Shown here in pieces: positions 45,821-50,759 of a stretch of 64,000 nt of DNA (positions are counted from its first letter, which is position 1; the number at the start of each line of letters is the position of its first letter). The stretch spans positions 62,001 through 126,000 of the forward strand of contig NZ_KK214997.1 of NCBI RefSeq assembly GCF_000633935.1. The letters run 5' to 3'. The position numbers were made by a program, and so were the translations under genes. The notes beneath the pieces are model-generated. The model was not told the DNA's origin. It ran no database searches and was given only the letters and a program-made list of their open reading frames with translations. Source of the stretch: Ectothiorhodospira haloalkaliphila ATCC 51935 (GTDB lineage Bacteria > Pseudomonadota > Gammaproteobacteria > Ectothiorhodospirales > Ectothiorhodospiraceae).

Positions 45821-46867
45821 TCACACCGGCAATTCCATGTTTGACGAGTCGTCCATGGACCCCGCCAGGGCCACGGCGGCCTCCCAGTCCGGATCCTTGC
45901 GAAGTGCTTCCCAGGTCGGCGCCCGCCGACCGTGCATCCTGGCCAGCCTGGCCATGGCCACGGGTGCCTCGTGACCCGCCAGGGCATCCAGCGCCTGGGC
46001 CGCACCGTCGGGATGATTGCATACCAGCATCATGTCGCAACCGGCAGCCTGGGCCTTGAGCGCCCGCTCGCCGTAGTCCCCGAAGGTCTCGGTGGCCGCC
46101 ATGCTCAGATCATCGCTGAAGATCGCCCCCTGGAAACGCAGCTGCCCACGCAATATGTCCCTTAACCAGTAGCGCGAGAACCCCGCCGGCAGCCCGTCGG
46201 CCCGGGAGTACACCACATGGGCAGGCATGAGCCCGGCGATGCCCTGCTCGATCAGCCGCTCGAAGGGCAGCATGTCATCAGTGAGGATATCCCGCTGCGG
46301 TCGCTCGTCCACCGGCAATTCCAGGTGGGAATCGGCGCGTACGCCGCCATGGCCGGGGAAGTGCTTGCCCACTGCCTCCATGCCTGCCGAGCGCATCCCC
46401 CGCATCCACTGCACGGCCAGATCGGCCACCACATGGGGCGAGCGATGAAAGGCGCGATCCCCGATCACACCGCTGCAGCCGTGGGCCAGATCCAGCACCG
46501 GTGCAAAGCTGAAGTCCACGCCGGCGGCGCGCAACTCCGCCGCCATCAGCCAGCCCAGCAGGCGGGATCTGCGCCGTGCCTCAGTGGGGTTCCTGTCGTA
46601 CACTTCACCCAGGCGGGCCATGGGGGGCAGCTTCGTGAAACCTTCACGGAAACGCTGTACCCTGCCCCCCTCATGATCCACCGCCACCAGCAGATGCGGA
46701 TCCCGCAGGGCATGGATCCGGGTCACCAGTTCGGTGAGTTGCTCCACCGACTGGAAATTTCGGGTGAACAGGATCACCCCACCCGCCATGGGATGGCATA
46801 ACAGGCGTTGCTCGGCGGCGGTGAGGGTGGTCCCCTCAAGATCCAGCATCACGGGCCCCAGGGGCAT
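45821..46867 (-). CDS. nagZ: Beta-N-acetylhexosaminidase (family GH3)
   Basis: Cytoplasmic enzyme removing GlcNAc from anhydromuropeptides in peptidoglycan recycling; its product signals AmpC-type induction in some species. The 348-residue protein has the GH3 short form: VAVDHEGGRVQRFR, the KHFPGHGGVRADSHLELP loop with the His/Asp dyad, and the nucleophile in FSDDLSM. FAPVLDLAHGCSGVIGDRAF is also typical. Start ATG 46867. It precedes the DsrE-hpt-mtnP genes, as nagZ precedes mtnP in Pseudomonas. Confidence 0.96.
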   Translation of the reverse strand: MPLGPVMLDLEGTTLTAAEQRLLCHPMAGGVILFTRNFQSVEQLTELVTRIHALRDPHLLVAVDHEGGRVQRFREGFTKLPPMARLGEVYDRNPTEARRRSRLLGWLMAAELRAAGVDFSFAPVLDLAHGCSGVIGDRAFHRSPHVVADLAVQWMRGMRSAGMEAVGKHFPGHGGVRADSHLELPVDERPQRDILTDDMLPFERLIEQGIAGLMPAHVVYSRADGLPAGFSRYWLRDILRGQLRFQGAIFSDDLSMAATETFGDYGERALKAQAAGCDMMLVCNHPDGAAQALDALAGHEAPVAMARLARMHGRRAPTWEALRKDPDWEAAVALAGSMDDSSNMELPV

Positions 46868-46950: not shown

Positions 46951-47793
46951 ATGCCGATGGCAGATCAAAGCACCCCAACCGCCAACCCGGTTCACGACCT
47001 GGGACCCGCCGAAAGGCGACCCCGGGTGGCACTGGTCAACCCGGGGGGCGAGGCCAACATCAACGGCCAGTTCGTGCTGGGGCGCCTCAGCGCCTTTCTC
47101 ACCAGCCTGGAATCGGGCGAATCGCCCCGGGGGCGCCTGCGGGAGCGCATCCTCATTGCCCCCTGCCCTGGGTCCGACCAGGCCCGGAACGTTGCCGAGC
47201 AGACCCGTCAGGCCTTTTACCGGGTGGAGGTAGGCCACGGGGCGGACGGCATGGATGCCCTGCCCCAGGTATTTCTCATCAATCCCAGCGACGATGAACG
47301 ATCATCCGCCTGCCTGTTCGGCCTGGCTGCGGTGATCGAACACCCGGAACACATGAATGGGGACGCCCCCTGGCTGCCCGCCTGGCGGGAAGCCGGCGGC
47401 GAGAACCTCTATCTCAAGGCCGGCCGCGCCGGTGAATTGCAGCCGGCCCTGTGCGAGCGCCTGTTCCGGGCCCTGGTGACCTTTCTCACCCATGCCGAGG
47501 TGATTCAGGACATCAGCCTCGCGGAGGAGGAGGATGACCTGCACTATTTTGGTGAGAAACAGGTCTTCGAACTCACCAGCGACGCCCGCGGCCTGTTCGT
47601 GTTCCGGCAGGATCCGGGGCACTGGCTCCATGGCGGTGACCTGATCGGCTATCTCTACGATCGCGGCACCGGTGCCCTCATCAAGGAATTCAAAACACCC
47701 GTGAGCGGCCTGTTGACCTCGATCCGGCGCAATCCGCTGGTGGAGGCCGGCTCGCCCGTGGCAACGGTCAGCCGCCTGGAGCGCGAGGACTGA
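46951..47793 (+). CDS. Aspartoacylase/succinylglutamate desuccinylase-like protein with degenerate metal site
   Basis: A 280-residue relative of M14-type zinc deacylases. The zinc motif, normally a His-Gly-(Asp/Asn)-Glu block followed by N/G residues, appears here as NPGGEANINGQFVLGRL: the glutamate and INGQ part are kept but the metal-binding histidine is glycine. The C-terminal beta-domain (GLFVFRQDPGHWLHGGDLIG, then TGALIKEFKTPVSGLL) is well kept. So it may be catalytically inactive or use a changed site. AAGGA lies upstream; ATG 46957 is an alternative. It diverges from nagZ. Confidence 0.75.
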   Translation: MPMADQSTPTANPVHDLGPAERRPRVALVNPGGEANINGQFVLGRLSAFLTSLESGESPRGRLRERILIAPCPGSDQARNVAEQTRQAFYRVEVGHGADGMDALPQVFLINPSDDERSSACLFGLAAVIEHPEHMNGDAPWLPAWREAGGENLYLKAGRAGELQPALCERLFRALVTFLTHAEVIQDISLAEEEDDLHYFGEKQVFELTSDARGLFVFRQDPGHWLHGGDLIGYLYDRGTGALIKEFKTPVSGLLTSIRRNPLVEAGSPVATVSRLERED

Positions 47794-47802
47794 CGCGCCC
47801 AC

Positions 47803-47831
47803 AAAAAAACGGGGCATCCGAAGATACCCCG
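47803..47831 (-). terminator. Strong minus-strand intrinsic terminator with UUCG loop
   Basis: On the minus strand CGGGGTATC, loop TTCG, GATGCCCCG, then seven T. The stem has one mismatch. It points leftward, although no minus-strand gene is recognised to its right, so it may end a small RNA. It also forms a hairpin after the plus-strand deacylase-like gene, but without a T-run in that direction. Confidence 0.75.
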
Positions 47832-48077
47832 CAAGCAGGAGGAGTGAACGAGATGACCGACAAGGCGGTGATGCATATCTTGCCAGACACTCAAGGATGA
47901 GCAACCGGCGTGCCAAATCATAACTCACTGATTCAAAAGGACTCATCGATTCCTTTGGAGCATCAGCTCGCACCAAAAGGGTGCAACCATTCGGGGATTC
48001 GCGCAGCAATGATGCACCGCGGAATTTCCGGTTTTGTGAACGACTTACAAGAGTGATGACCCGGCAGTATTGATATT
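47832..48077. other. Gene-free interval with possible small RNA or mini-ORF
   Basis: No conserved protein fits in the 426-bp gap 47794-48219. On the minus strand the stretch just before the terminator is pyrimidine-rich (CACTCCTCCTGC), like an sRNA seed against ribosome sites. On the plus strand AGGAGG at about 47838 precedes a 15-codon frame at 47853-47900 (MTDKAVMHILPDTQG). Either reading is unproved. Confidence 0.3.
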
Positions 48078-48103
48078 CCACTTGACCTGTTACACTCAAG
48101 TGG
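48078..48103. promoter_or_regulatory. 8-bp inverted repeat upstream of the Lpp-like gene
   Basis: CCACTTGA and TCAAGTGG are separated by 10 nt, about 117 bp before the lipoprotein start. TTGACC within it could be a -35 box. An operator or a hairpin near the promoter is possible; no regulator is assigned. Confidence 0.33.
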
Positions 48104-48219: not shown

Positions 48220-48513
48220 ATGCGTAAAGGTATGATCAGATTTGCCGTGGTTCCCGCCGCCGCTTTCGCTCTGGTGCTGAGCACCGGCTGTGCCACCACC
48301 CAGAATATGGAAGAACATCGTCAGATGATCGACAACGCTGGCGTCACCGCCGACCGCGCCCTGCGCACCGCCGAGGGGGCCCAGTCCAGTGCCGATAGCG
48401 CTCAGCGCACCGCGAATGAGGCCAACCAGAAGGCCGACCGCGCCCTGGAAGAAAATGCTCGCCTGCGGGAGATGATGCAGCGCATGGAGCGCACCATGGA
48501 GCGTGGCAAGTAA
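48220..48513 (+). CDS. Lpp/OprI-like outer membrane lipoprotein
   Basis: A 97-residue lipoprotein. The signal sequence ends in a lipobox LSTGC with lipidated Cys24. The mature part is a heptad coiled coil rich in alanine (ADRALRTAEGAQSSADSAQ), ending MERTMERGK with a C-terminal lysine, the residue joined to peptidoglycan in Lpp. GGAGG precedes ATG 48220. It resembles OprI of Pseudomonas more than E. coli Lpp in length. It is followed by a very strong terminator, fitting a highly expressed gene. Confidence 0.86.
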   Translation: MRKGMIRFAVVPAAAFALVLSTGCATTQNMEEHRQMIDNAGVTADRALRTAEGAQSSADSAQRTANEANQKADRALEENARLREMMQRMERTMERGK

Positions 48514-48571
48514 GCAGGCTCCCTGCCTGTCGTGATTGTGCGTGTCATGATTGACTGACACGCAAAACAGA

Positions 48572-48609
48572 CCGGGCCCGCCAAGTGAATGGCGGGCCCG
48601 GCCTTTTTT
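48572..48609 (+). terminator. Strong intrinsic terminator of the Lpp-like gene
   Basis: CCGGGCCCGCCA (48572-48583) pairs perfectly with TGGCGGGCCCGG (48590-48601), followed by a T-run at 48604-48609. A smaller 7-bp hairpin CGTGTCA/TGACACG lies just upstream (48541-48562). Confidence 0.9.
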
Positions 48610-48680: not shown

Positions 48681-50759
48681 TCAGAAGCGGTACTTCGCAC
48701 CGAGTTCAAAGCTGCGCTCCGGCCCCACATAGATGCCCTGCCGCAGACCCGAGATATAACGCTCATCGGTCAGGTTCTTGACGGCACCAAAGACACTGAA
48801 CTGCTGATTGACAGCATACTGCCCGGTCAGGTCGACCGTGTAGTAACTGGAAAGCAGTCCATCCCGATGATTCTCAGGATCGATCTCCTTACGGTTGCGG
48901 GCCTCGCCATAAACTTCCCCTGTGTAGTTCACAAGCAGGGCCGCCTCCAGCGGGCCTGTGTGATAAGCCAGCGTCAGATTACCCATCCATTCCGGGGAAT
49001 AAGACAGTCGGTTCCCAGCATCTACGTCCTTCTCTGGAATACCGGATCGAAATTCAGCAGTCGGGATCCAGGTTAAATTACCATCCAGCATGAATCCATT
49101 TCCGAAATCATACCCGACAGCACCCTCTACGCCTCTGATCCGAGCATCACCCTCTTTGGGGTCGGCGATGGCCGATATGCCGGGTTCCACATAGTTCGAG
49201 AAATCCATATTGAAGGCAGCGACTTCGTAGCGCATGGAACCGGTGGCGCCACGAACCCCGATCTCGATATTGGTGGATTTTTCGGGATCGGAGACGAGAT
49301 CCGGATCCAGGGCATTGGCCACCTGCGGAGGCGCCATCGCCCGGTGAATGCCACCGAACAACTGTGCCGACGGATTCAGCCGATAGGTTGCACCAATACC
49401 CGGAAGGAAATGGGAATCAGAAAATGAACCGTCATTGTCGGCGTTCCTTCTATCCTCTCGCTCGACCTTATAGCGTTCTGTACGCAATCCTGCGGTGATG
49501 GAGAGGTCCGAGGTCACGTCAAAACGGTTTTGTGCAAAAAGCCCAATATTGGAGGCACTCAGGGTGCGATCCTGCCTCAAGTCACCGGCTTGATGGGTGG
49601 TGTCGTAGCGCAAGGCAAAAGGAGTGTTTCCTGCGTCGATATCAAGCATCTCCTCTTCCATGTACCGGATACCAAACTCAGCCTCGTTATTGATACCAAA
49701 CGTTTCGTGATTCAACGTCAAGCGTGAATCGACCCCGATACGCTCGAACTCACGGACGGCGCCGCGAAAAGCGTTTCTATTGTCAGGACCGTAATCCCAG
49801 ACTGTCACCCCATCAACCTGCTTGGTGCCGTCAACGTTTTGCCTCCAATAGCCACGATCCATCTCGCTCCAGTAAACCAGCGTTCTCAACTCGGCATCCC
49901 GGTTGATCTGCCATTCATGGTTCACATCAAACGATGTTCGACTGGTGAGATAATAGTCATCCGGTGCGGGATTGAATGTCTTGCCCGCCTTGTAGGCATC
50001 CTCAAAGAGTCCGCGGTACGAGATATTGGCCTCATTGTCGTAGTAGACAAATTTCGCACTGATGTACTGGTCTTCACCAATGGCCGTGCCTGCCCTGACC
50101 ATCACATCGGTCATGGTGTAACCCTTATCCATCCAGCCATCACTTTCGGCGCGGGTGGCGATGATGCCGAAGCGGGAATCGCCACTGGGGGAACTGCCGC
50201 CGAGCTCCGCGACCACCTCCTGGGTATTCCAGGAGCCCACCTTGCCGCGGACGGACACACCATCCTCAGGCATTCTGGTCTGGAAGTTGATAACACCACC
50301 GATATTGTTGGGTCCATAACGCAGGGAGGAGGCGCCCTTCAGGACTTCAACCCCTTCCATGCGCTGCACCCGGGGATTGTAGTACCTGGAGTTACCGATA
50401 AATATCCCGGGCTGGACCGGCACACCGTCCTCCAGCACCAGGGTCTTGAAATCGCCGGCGGGGATGCCGCGCACACCAAAATTGGTCACTACCGCAGACT
50501 CTTCCTCGCCCTTGATATAGACACCCGGCACCCTGCGCAGCAGATCCTCGGTGGAGCGAGGCTGGATGCGATCCACATCCTCCTGGGTCAACACATTCAC
50601 CGCGGCTGGAATCCTGGCCCGCTCGGCTTCGGTTTGTCCGACGACATCGATGCGGGGCAGCTGGAATGCCCTTTCCTGAGCCATGGCCGTGCTCACGCTC
50701 CCCATCGTGCCGAGTGCCAAGGCCACCGCAGTGACCAGCGAAGTATTTTTGACTTGCAC
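48681..50759 (-). CDS. TonB-dependent receptor, FecA/ferric-siderophore type
   Basis: A 692-residue outer-membrane gated channel. Signal peptide to about residue 28 (STAMAQ), TonB box region LPRIDVVGQTEAE, plug domain with TEDLLRRVPGVYIKGEEE and GPNNIGGVINFQTRMPEDG, and a 22-strand barrel ending in ERSFELGAKYRF with terminal Phe. The FGVRGIPAGDFKTLVLEDG block resembles FecA-group receptors. Start is GTG 50759 with GGAG eight bases upstream. The hemP gene lies upstream with a Fur box, so iron regulation is likely. It has no N-terminal signalling domain. Confidence 0.93.
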   Translation of the reverse strand: MQVKNTSLVTAVALALGTMGSVSTAMAQERAFQLPRIDVVGQTEAERARIPAAVNVLTQEDVDRIQPRSTEDLLRRVPGVYIKGEEESAVVTNFGVRGIPAGDFKTLVLEDGVPVQPGIFIGNSRYYNPRVQRMEGVEVLKGASSLRYGPNNIGGVINFQTRMPEDGVSVRGKVGSWNTQEVVAELGGSSPSGDSRFGIIATRAESDGWMDKGYTMTDVMVRAGTAIGEDQYISAKFVYYDNEANISYRGLFEDAYKAGKTFNPAPDDYYLTSRTSFDVNHEWQINRDAELRTLVYWSEMDRGYWRQNVDGTKQVDGVTVWDYGPDNRNAFRGAVREFERIGVDSRLTLNHETFGINNEAEFGIRYMEEEMLDIDAGNTPFALRYDTTHQAGDLRQDRTLSASNIGLFAQNRFDVTSDLSITAGLRTERYKVEREDRRNADNDGSFSDSHFLPGIGATYRLNPSAQLFGGIHRAMAPPQVANALDPDLVSDPEKSTNIEIGVRGATGSMRYEVAAFNMDFSNYVEPGISAIADPKEGDARIRGVEGAVGYDFGNGFMLDGNLTWIPTAEFRSGIPEKDVDAGNRLSYSPEWMGNLTLAYHTGPLEAALLVNYTGEVYGEARNRKEIDPENHRDGLLSSYYTVDLTGQYAVNQQFSVFGAVKNLTDERYISGLRQGIYVGPERSFELGAKYRF

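Follow-up and report, generated by a model that had tools for sequence, protein, structure and literature searches.

A predicted sigma-54-dependent small RNA with an anti-Shine-Dalgarno linker in Ectothiorhodospira and other Gammaproteobacteria

Among the bacterial small RNAs (sRNAs) that depend on sigma-54 are Qrr, GlmY/GlmZ and CrcZ/CrcY, which have enhancer-binding proteins of their own and whose seeds and folds are other than those of the RNA described here. Sigma-54 is also linked to RNAs of nitrogen control. In pseudomonads, NrsZ (RF02695) is described as an sRNA of nitrogen limitation that is dependent on both NtrB/C and RpoN (passages of PMC8395346). NfiS and NfiR of Pseudomonas stutzeri are nitrogen-related noncoding RNAs that act with nif mRNAs; like the RNA predicted here, NfiS is sigma-54-dependent and NfiR has an NtrC site (passages of PMC6606865). 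In Enterobacteriaceae, GlnZ is an RNA of the NtrC regulon that represses genes of carbon metabolism, e.g., sucA (passages of PMC9731577).

The window, i.e., the whole stretch of 64,000 nucleotides from Ectothiorhodospira haloalkaliphila ATCC 51935 that was analyzed, carries on its minus strand an intrinsic terminator at 47831-47810, with the stem CGGGGTATC/GATGCCCCG (one G-U pair), a cUUCGg loop (TTCG closed by C-G, 47822-47819) and seven T directly 3' of the stem at 47809-47803. The original prediction of a minus-strand sRNA had been built on this leftward-reading terminator and on a C/U-rich tract preceding it, and both are present, the tract being the anti-Shine-Dalgarno sequence CACTCCTCCTGC at 47846-47835. 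The nearest minus-strand gene to the right encodes a TonB-dependent receptor (stop at 48681) and lies beyond a divergent plus-strand gene for an Lpp/OprI-type alanine-zipper lipoprotein (48220..48513; NF040598), consistent with the claim that several hundred bases separate the terminator from any such gene. Terminator-scoring hairpins were found on both strands at 48569-48604. Since the terminator scan, taken alone, gave about what is expected by chance (3 terminator-like sites versus 2.2 +/- 1.5 in shuffles), the case for an RNA gene was built on comparison.

Comparison with relatives suggests that the feature is larger than first described, with the terminator and the tract representing the 3' half of a predicted gene of about 88 nt that is read from the minus strand at about 47890-47803; its end is set by the T run. 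From 5' to 3', this gene consists of a stem-loop (47850..47892), the anti-Shine-Dalgarno linker (47835..47846), which is unpaired in the predicted fold, and the terminator (47803..47831). The 90-nt minus strand of the window gave a fold z of -4.43, and the same fold, including a mostly unpaired linker with ACUCCUCCUGC, was predicted for 13 loci in the family, where z ranged from -3.4 to -5.9 and RNA length from 85 to 91 nt. Both ACUCCUCCUGC and ACTCCTCCTGC are found in all 13 of these family loci, the former identically, while the linker differs among families yet remains C/U-rich. Two weak extra family matches without a sigma-54 element, L024 and L025, were excluded from the 13 family loci and from alignment A3; alignment A4 excluded these two as well as L021 (RNA identical to L020), L031, L036, L043 and L046.

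Covariation further supports the fold. Among 12 distinct family sequences, 5 of the 9 pairs in the 5' stem-loop showed compensatory changes, and 18 cells were changed on both sides as compared to 6.1 in shuffled data; with 30 distinct sequences the numbers were 112 and 32.7, although both alignments were fitted to the structure and the counts are therefore biased towards it. A MAFFT alignment of six sequences, which was not fitted to the structure, pointed in the same direction with fewer changes (7 cells versus 3.2); here, 5 pairs had both sides changed, a value reached by 30 of 500 shuffles. Covariation in relatives had been proposed as a check, with conservation of the hairpin alone to count against an sRNA; compensatory changes were found in both helices, and the 5' stem, the linker and the promoter are conserved as well. 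Together with the constant ACUCCUCCUGC and a sigma-54 element with the expected spacing at 12 of the 13 family loci, the covariation argues for a minus-strand sRNA ending at the terminator, and the constancy of ACUCCUCCUGC is also consistent with the seed against ribosome sites that had been suspected in the tract.

The same conserved bases could be read on the plus strand, where a small protein would start at the ATG at 47853, with GCAGGAGGAG as its Shine-Dalgarno site. At 12 of the 13 family loci an ATG does follow GCAGGAGGAG, giving peptides that start with MTD, MAN or MAD, but they range from 10 to 61 residues and diverge after about four residues, and L016 has no ATG. Moreover, the part in which they are alike is the complement of a conserved RNA helix with compensatory pair changes, and the sigma-54 element and the T run suit the minus strand only. 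A plus-strand peptide, which was ruled out on length and sequence, is thus scarcely credible. In those 12 loci, the Shine-Dalgarno site and ATG of the plus strand (47853-47900 in the window) mirror the anti-Shine-Dalgarno linker and stem of the RNA.

Upstream of the predicted RNA, a sigma-54 -24/-12 element, TTGGCACGCCGGTTGCT, is located on the minus strand at 47900..47916 and matches all 13 scored positions, with GG and GC fixed in the scoring. With the usual sigma-54 spacing, the transcript would start near 47889. A score of at least 12 was reached by 0.11% of 5710 control windows and a score of at least 11 by 0.44% of them, as compared to 12 of the 13 family loci for the latter (12 of 15 if L024 and L025 are included), and the covariance models used to find these loci were built without any upstream sequence. 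Besides L024 and L025, the family locus without a sigma-54 element upstream is L017 (genome G013), which has retained the RNA body and the linker; its promoter may have been exchanged. No sigma-70-like promoter was found close to the element in the window, and a sigma-70 reading was dropped.

An NtrC-type palindrome, TGCACCCTTTTGGTGC, lies further upstream on the minus strand (47970..47985) and matches 10 of 10 positions, a score that none of 443 control windows reached. Sites with 9 or 10 matches were found at 10 of the 13 family loci as compared to 4.3% of the 443 control windows, and at only 4 of 31 loci of other families. As a site scoring at least 9 is missing from 3 of the 13 family loci and from 27 of the 31 loci of other families, either another activator acts there or the link to NtrC is wrong for these loci. 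Independent lines of sequence evidence thus point to sigma-54 control of the RNA and, in this bacterial family, to control by NtrC.

In the source genome (G000), the NtrC-type pattern TGCACYNNNNNGGYGC occurs 30 times and the reversed-pattern control once. A sigma-54 element scoring at least 12 lies within 400 bases in 8 of these 30 cases; three of the eight precede rnfAB, torF-glnK and glnA are each preceded by one, another is at the RNA gene, and the last two are L053 and L054. The NtrC-type sites and strong sigma-54 element before the electron-transport genes rnfAB are found at 816947-817006 of contig C4 (L072-L074). The presence of ntrC itself, which was above the cut-off in 43 of 44 genomes, was useless as a predictor of carriers, since the gene is found in carriers and non-carriers alike.

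A covariance model search of 47 family genomes identified 13 carriers of the RNA, and a search at the order level repeated this family search. Carriers included 6 of 10 genomes of Ectothiorhodospira (g1) and all genomes of three further genera (g2, 1/1; g4, 5/5; g5, 1/1), and the non-carriers included the remaining 4 of Ectothiorhodospira and all 30 genomes of g3; ntrC was present in all non-carriers examined for it. The whole-genome model search of G009 was negative. E. marina (L003/L009) and two E. mobilis strains (L008, L010) have the lpp-nagZ region but lack the RNA there, suggesting that the gene was either lost or never there.

Downstream of the RNA and in the same orientation, the window carries nagZ, which encodes a beta-N-acetylhexosaminidase (45821..46867, minus strand; NF003740, 464 bits). 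A tblastn search with the NagZ of the window found the gene at 13 of 81 loci in four families, always downstream of the RNA and in the same orientation; these are 9 of the 13 family loci as well as L039 (f112), L028 (f136), and L037 and L042 (f43). This arrangement could indicate a leader or attenuator of nagZ, with transcription starting at the sigma-54 promoter and either stopping at the terminator or running on into nagZ. However, a 280-aa ORF on the opposite strand (46951..47793, plus strand), or its homologue at the same place, intervenes in the window, L015 and L016, and in family f60 the neighboring gene, which precedes the RNA, encodes an adenylosuccinate lyase; the remaining loci show no nagZ, an absence that tells little because the loci extend at most 1.5 kb per side. 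The intervening ORF and the other gene contexts speak against a nagZ leader, which is very unlikely.

Two details of these neighborhoods may be added. The 280-aa ORF had no NCBIfam or Pfam match, and only some lineages have it or its homologue between the RNA and nagZ. At L029 and L040, both from f60, the RNA is located downstream of the adenylosuccinate lyase gene in the same orientation, instead of upstream of nagZ.

Beyond the family, model R2 (E <= 0.001), likewise built without upstream sequence, matched 23 of 370 gammaproteobacterial genomes, 2 of which belong to Ectothiorhodospira and 21 to 12 other families. Of the 22 matches outside the family, counting a tandem pair in one genome (G208), 17 had a sigma-54 score of at least 11 and 18 a score of at least 10, as compared to 0.44% of the 5710 control windows at the former threshold; the binomial probability of 17/22 is ~2e-36 with the matches taken as independent, though related genomes are not fully so. 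Elements scoring at least 11 were found in 9 of the 12 other families with R2 matches. L031, L036, L043 and L046 have no sigma-54 element, and some of these four are probably false matches. The two members of the tandem pair (L033/L047; contig C121, 16638-16899) are about 90 bases apart and each has a sigma-54 element, an arrangement like that of sibling sRNAs.

With the more permissive search by model R3 (E <= 0.01), 58 of the 370 gammaproteobacterial genomes were matched, many of them probably due to chance. Because A4, the training set of R3, was partly selected on promoters, R3 was assessed with the 46 class matches that are not part of A4. Of these, 12 had a sigma-54 score of at least 11; this number does not count L143, which has a full sigma-54 element further upstream, and for L142 the contig ends 9 bases upstream. 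The source genome has a second, weak R3 match (L161; contig C4, 42301-42385; E 0.0029), with a C/U-rich linker and a terminator and no sigma-54 element. The RNA was found in 5 of 5 genomes of the order to which G355 belongs. A search across the phylum matched 15 of 397 genomes, and none of the ten matches in ten genomes outside the Gammaproteobacteria had a sigma-54 score of at least 11. As judged from sequence, relatives of the RNA thus occur in several gammaproteobacterial families.

Comparison with described RNAs indicates that the RNA represents a new family within a known kind, the sigma-54-dependent trans-acting sRNAs; the predicted gene has both a -24/-12 element at its start and a site for an enhancer-binding protein upstream, as this kind would have. 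Neither the window nor any of 20 distant loci gave a match at the gathering score of an Rfam 15 family. At E values up to 5, the only Rfam match in the window was asX3 (E 0.98), just past the terminator, and in eight loci searched at E up to 0.5 the only matches were to P31 and tfoR, both on L030, and to ar7 on L014, the last lying away from the RNA. The tfoR (RF02100) match on L030 is the only one on the RNA in a distant locus and falls below the gathering score (25.2 bits versus 70; E 0.021).

NrsZ is the closest described RNA in its logic, i.e., nitrogen limitation acting through NtrC and sigma-54, which for the present RNA is read from motifs. It is nevertheless another RNA, as length, fold, location and model score show. 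NrsZ has about 226-229 nt and repeated GUACAGGCAGG hairpins, whereas the present RNA has about 88 nt, one stem-loop and a terminator; the NrsZ gene adjoins ntrC (passages of PMC8395346), whereas in the source genome the RNA (contig C3) and ntrC (contig C4) lie on separate contigs. Neither model matched the other RNA at threshold (best score 8.2 bits, with filters off), and RF02695 did not reach its gathering score. In the NrsZ copy of G464, TTGGCACGCCCTCTGCA is found just upstream of NrsZ. NfiR is a 54-nt product (passages of PMC6606865), and the Nfi RNAs are set apart here by description, not by sequence. GlnZ is released by processing from the glnA 3' UTR (passages of PMC9731577), whereas the RNA described here would be transcribed from a predicted promoter of its own. 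The RNA is not described in the passages of PMC8395346, PMC10117139, PMC6606865 and PMC9731577 nor, among the matches listed, in the open-licence literature, where no sRNA of such kind is described in purple sulphur bacteria among the matches listed.

The RNA is probably a trans-acting sRNA that is activated by NtrC and sigma-54 and masks ribosome-binding sites under nitrogen limitation, with transcription, activator and targets deduced from sequence features. Under such a mechanism, phosphorylated NtrC would bind the palindrome at 47985-47970 when nitrogen is limiting and would activate sigma-54 RNA polymerase at 47916-47900 to transcribe the free-standing gene. The RNA would then fold, according to the computed structure, into the 5' stem-loop and the terminator with ACUCCUCCUGC exposed in the single-stranded linker between them. 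The U tail of the terminator could bind Hfq, and hfq was found in all 11 carriers searched, while the linker would pair with AGGAGG-type ribosome-binding sites and thereby block the translation of selected mRNAs.

A TAXI-type TRAP solute-binding protein, acetyl-CoA synthetase and HiPIP are weakly supported candidate targets. In a search of 11 carriers for the pattern CAGGAGGAGN{2,9}ATG, the start of the gene for the TAXI-type protein was the one gene start common to five Ectothiorhodospira genomes; the gene was read in G000 (TIGR02122), G002, G003 and G005, and by its matching site only in G007. For acs and HiPIP, the gene starts were read in G000, and identical sites in G007 were matched by site only. 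Duplex energies for the candidates ranged from -18.7 to -24.6, and thus did not stand out against the best value of -25.0 among 95 ORF starts of the window, which are mechanical ORFs of at least 150 aa and not annotated genes. Since the energies are not above the background best, no target is claimed; ranking targets by duplex energy was uninformative.

That pairing energy singles out no target would also fit a sigma-54-dependent RNA that acts by binding a protein, e.g., as a CrcZ-like sponge; passages of PMC6606865 list the pseudomonad RNAs CrcZ and CrcY as protein-binding or catabolite-repression noncoding RNAs. However, what is left unpaired in 13/13 family loci is a strict anti-Shine-Dalgarno sequence that occurs once per RNA, with no repeats, which makes action by protein binding unlikely and favors the masking of ribosome-binding sites. 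A wider proposal can be put forward only tentatively, namely that the matches represent one ancient, so far unlisted sRNA family across many gammaproteobacterial orders, in which the constant elements would be a sigma-54 promoter and, flanked by two hairpins, a bare anti-Shine-Dalgarno linker. Such an RNA might be activated by NtrC in some lineages and by another enhancer-binding protein elsewhere, and might act as a general translational brake of the sigma-54 regulon on mRNAs with AGGAGG-type sites.

The sigma-54 and NtrC control, the extent of the gene, its link to nagZ and its spread all go beyond the original prediction. The sigma-54 element, the C/U-rich linker and the linkage to nagZ make homologues easy to find and to test in culturable relatives, for which E. 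marina and E. mobilis, lacking the RNA at the same site, provide natural comparisons. If true, the proposed role would bring a regulatory RNA into the nitrogen control of purple sulphur bacteria, and would provide a family in which the evidence for the promoter does not stem from the search model.
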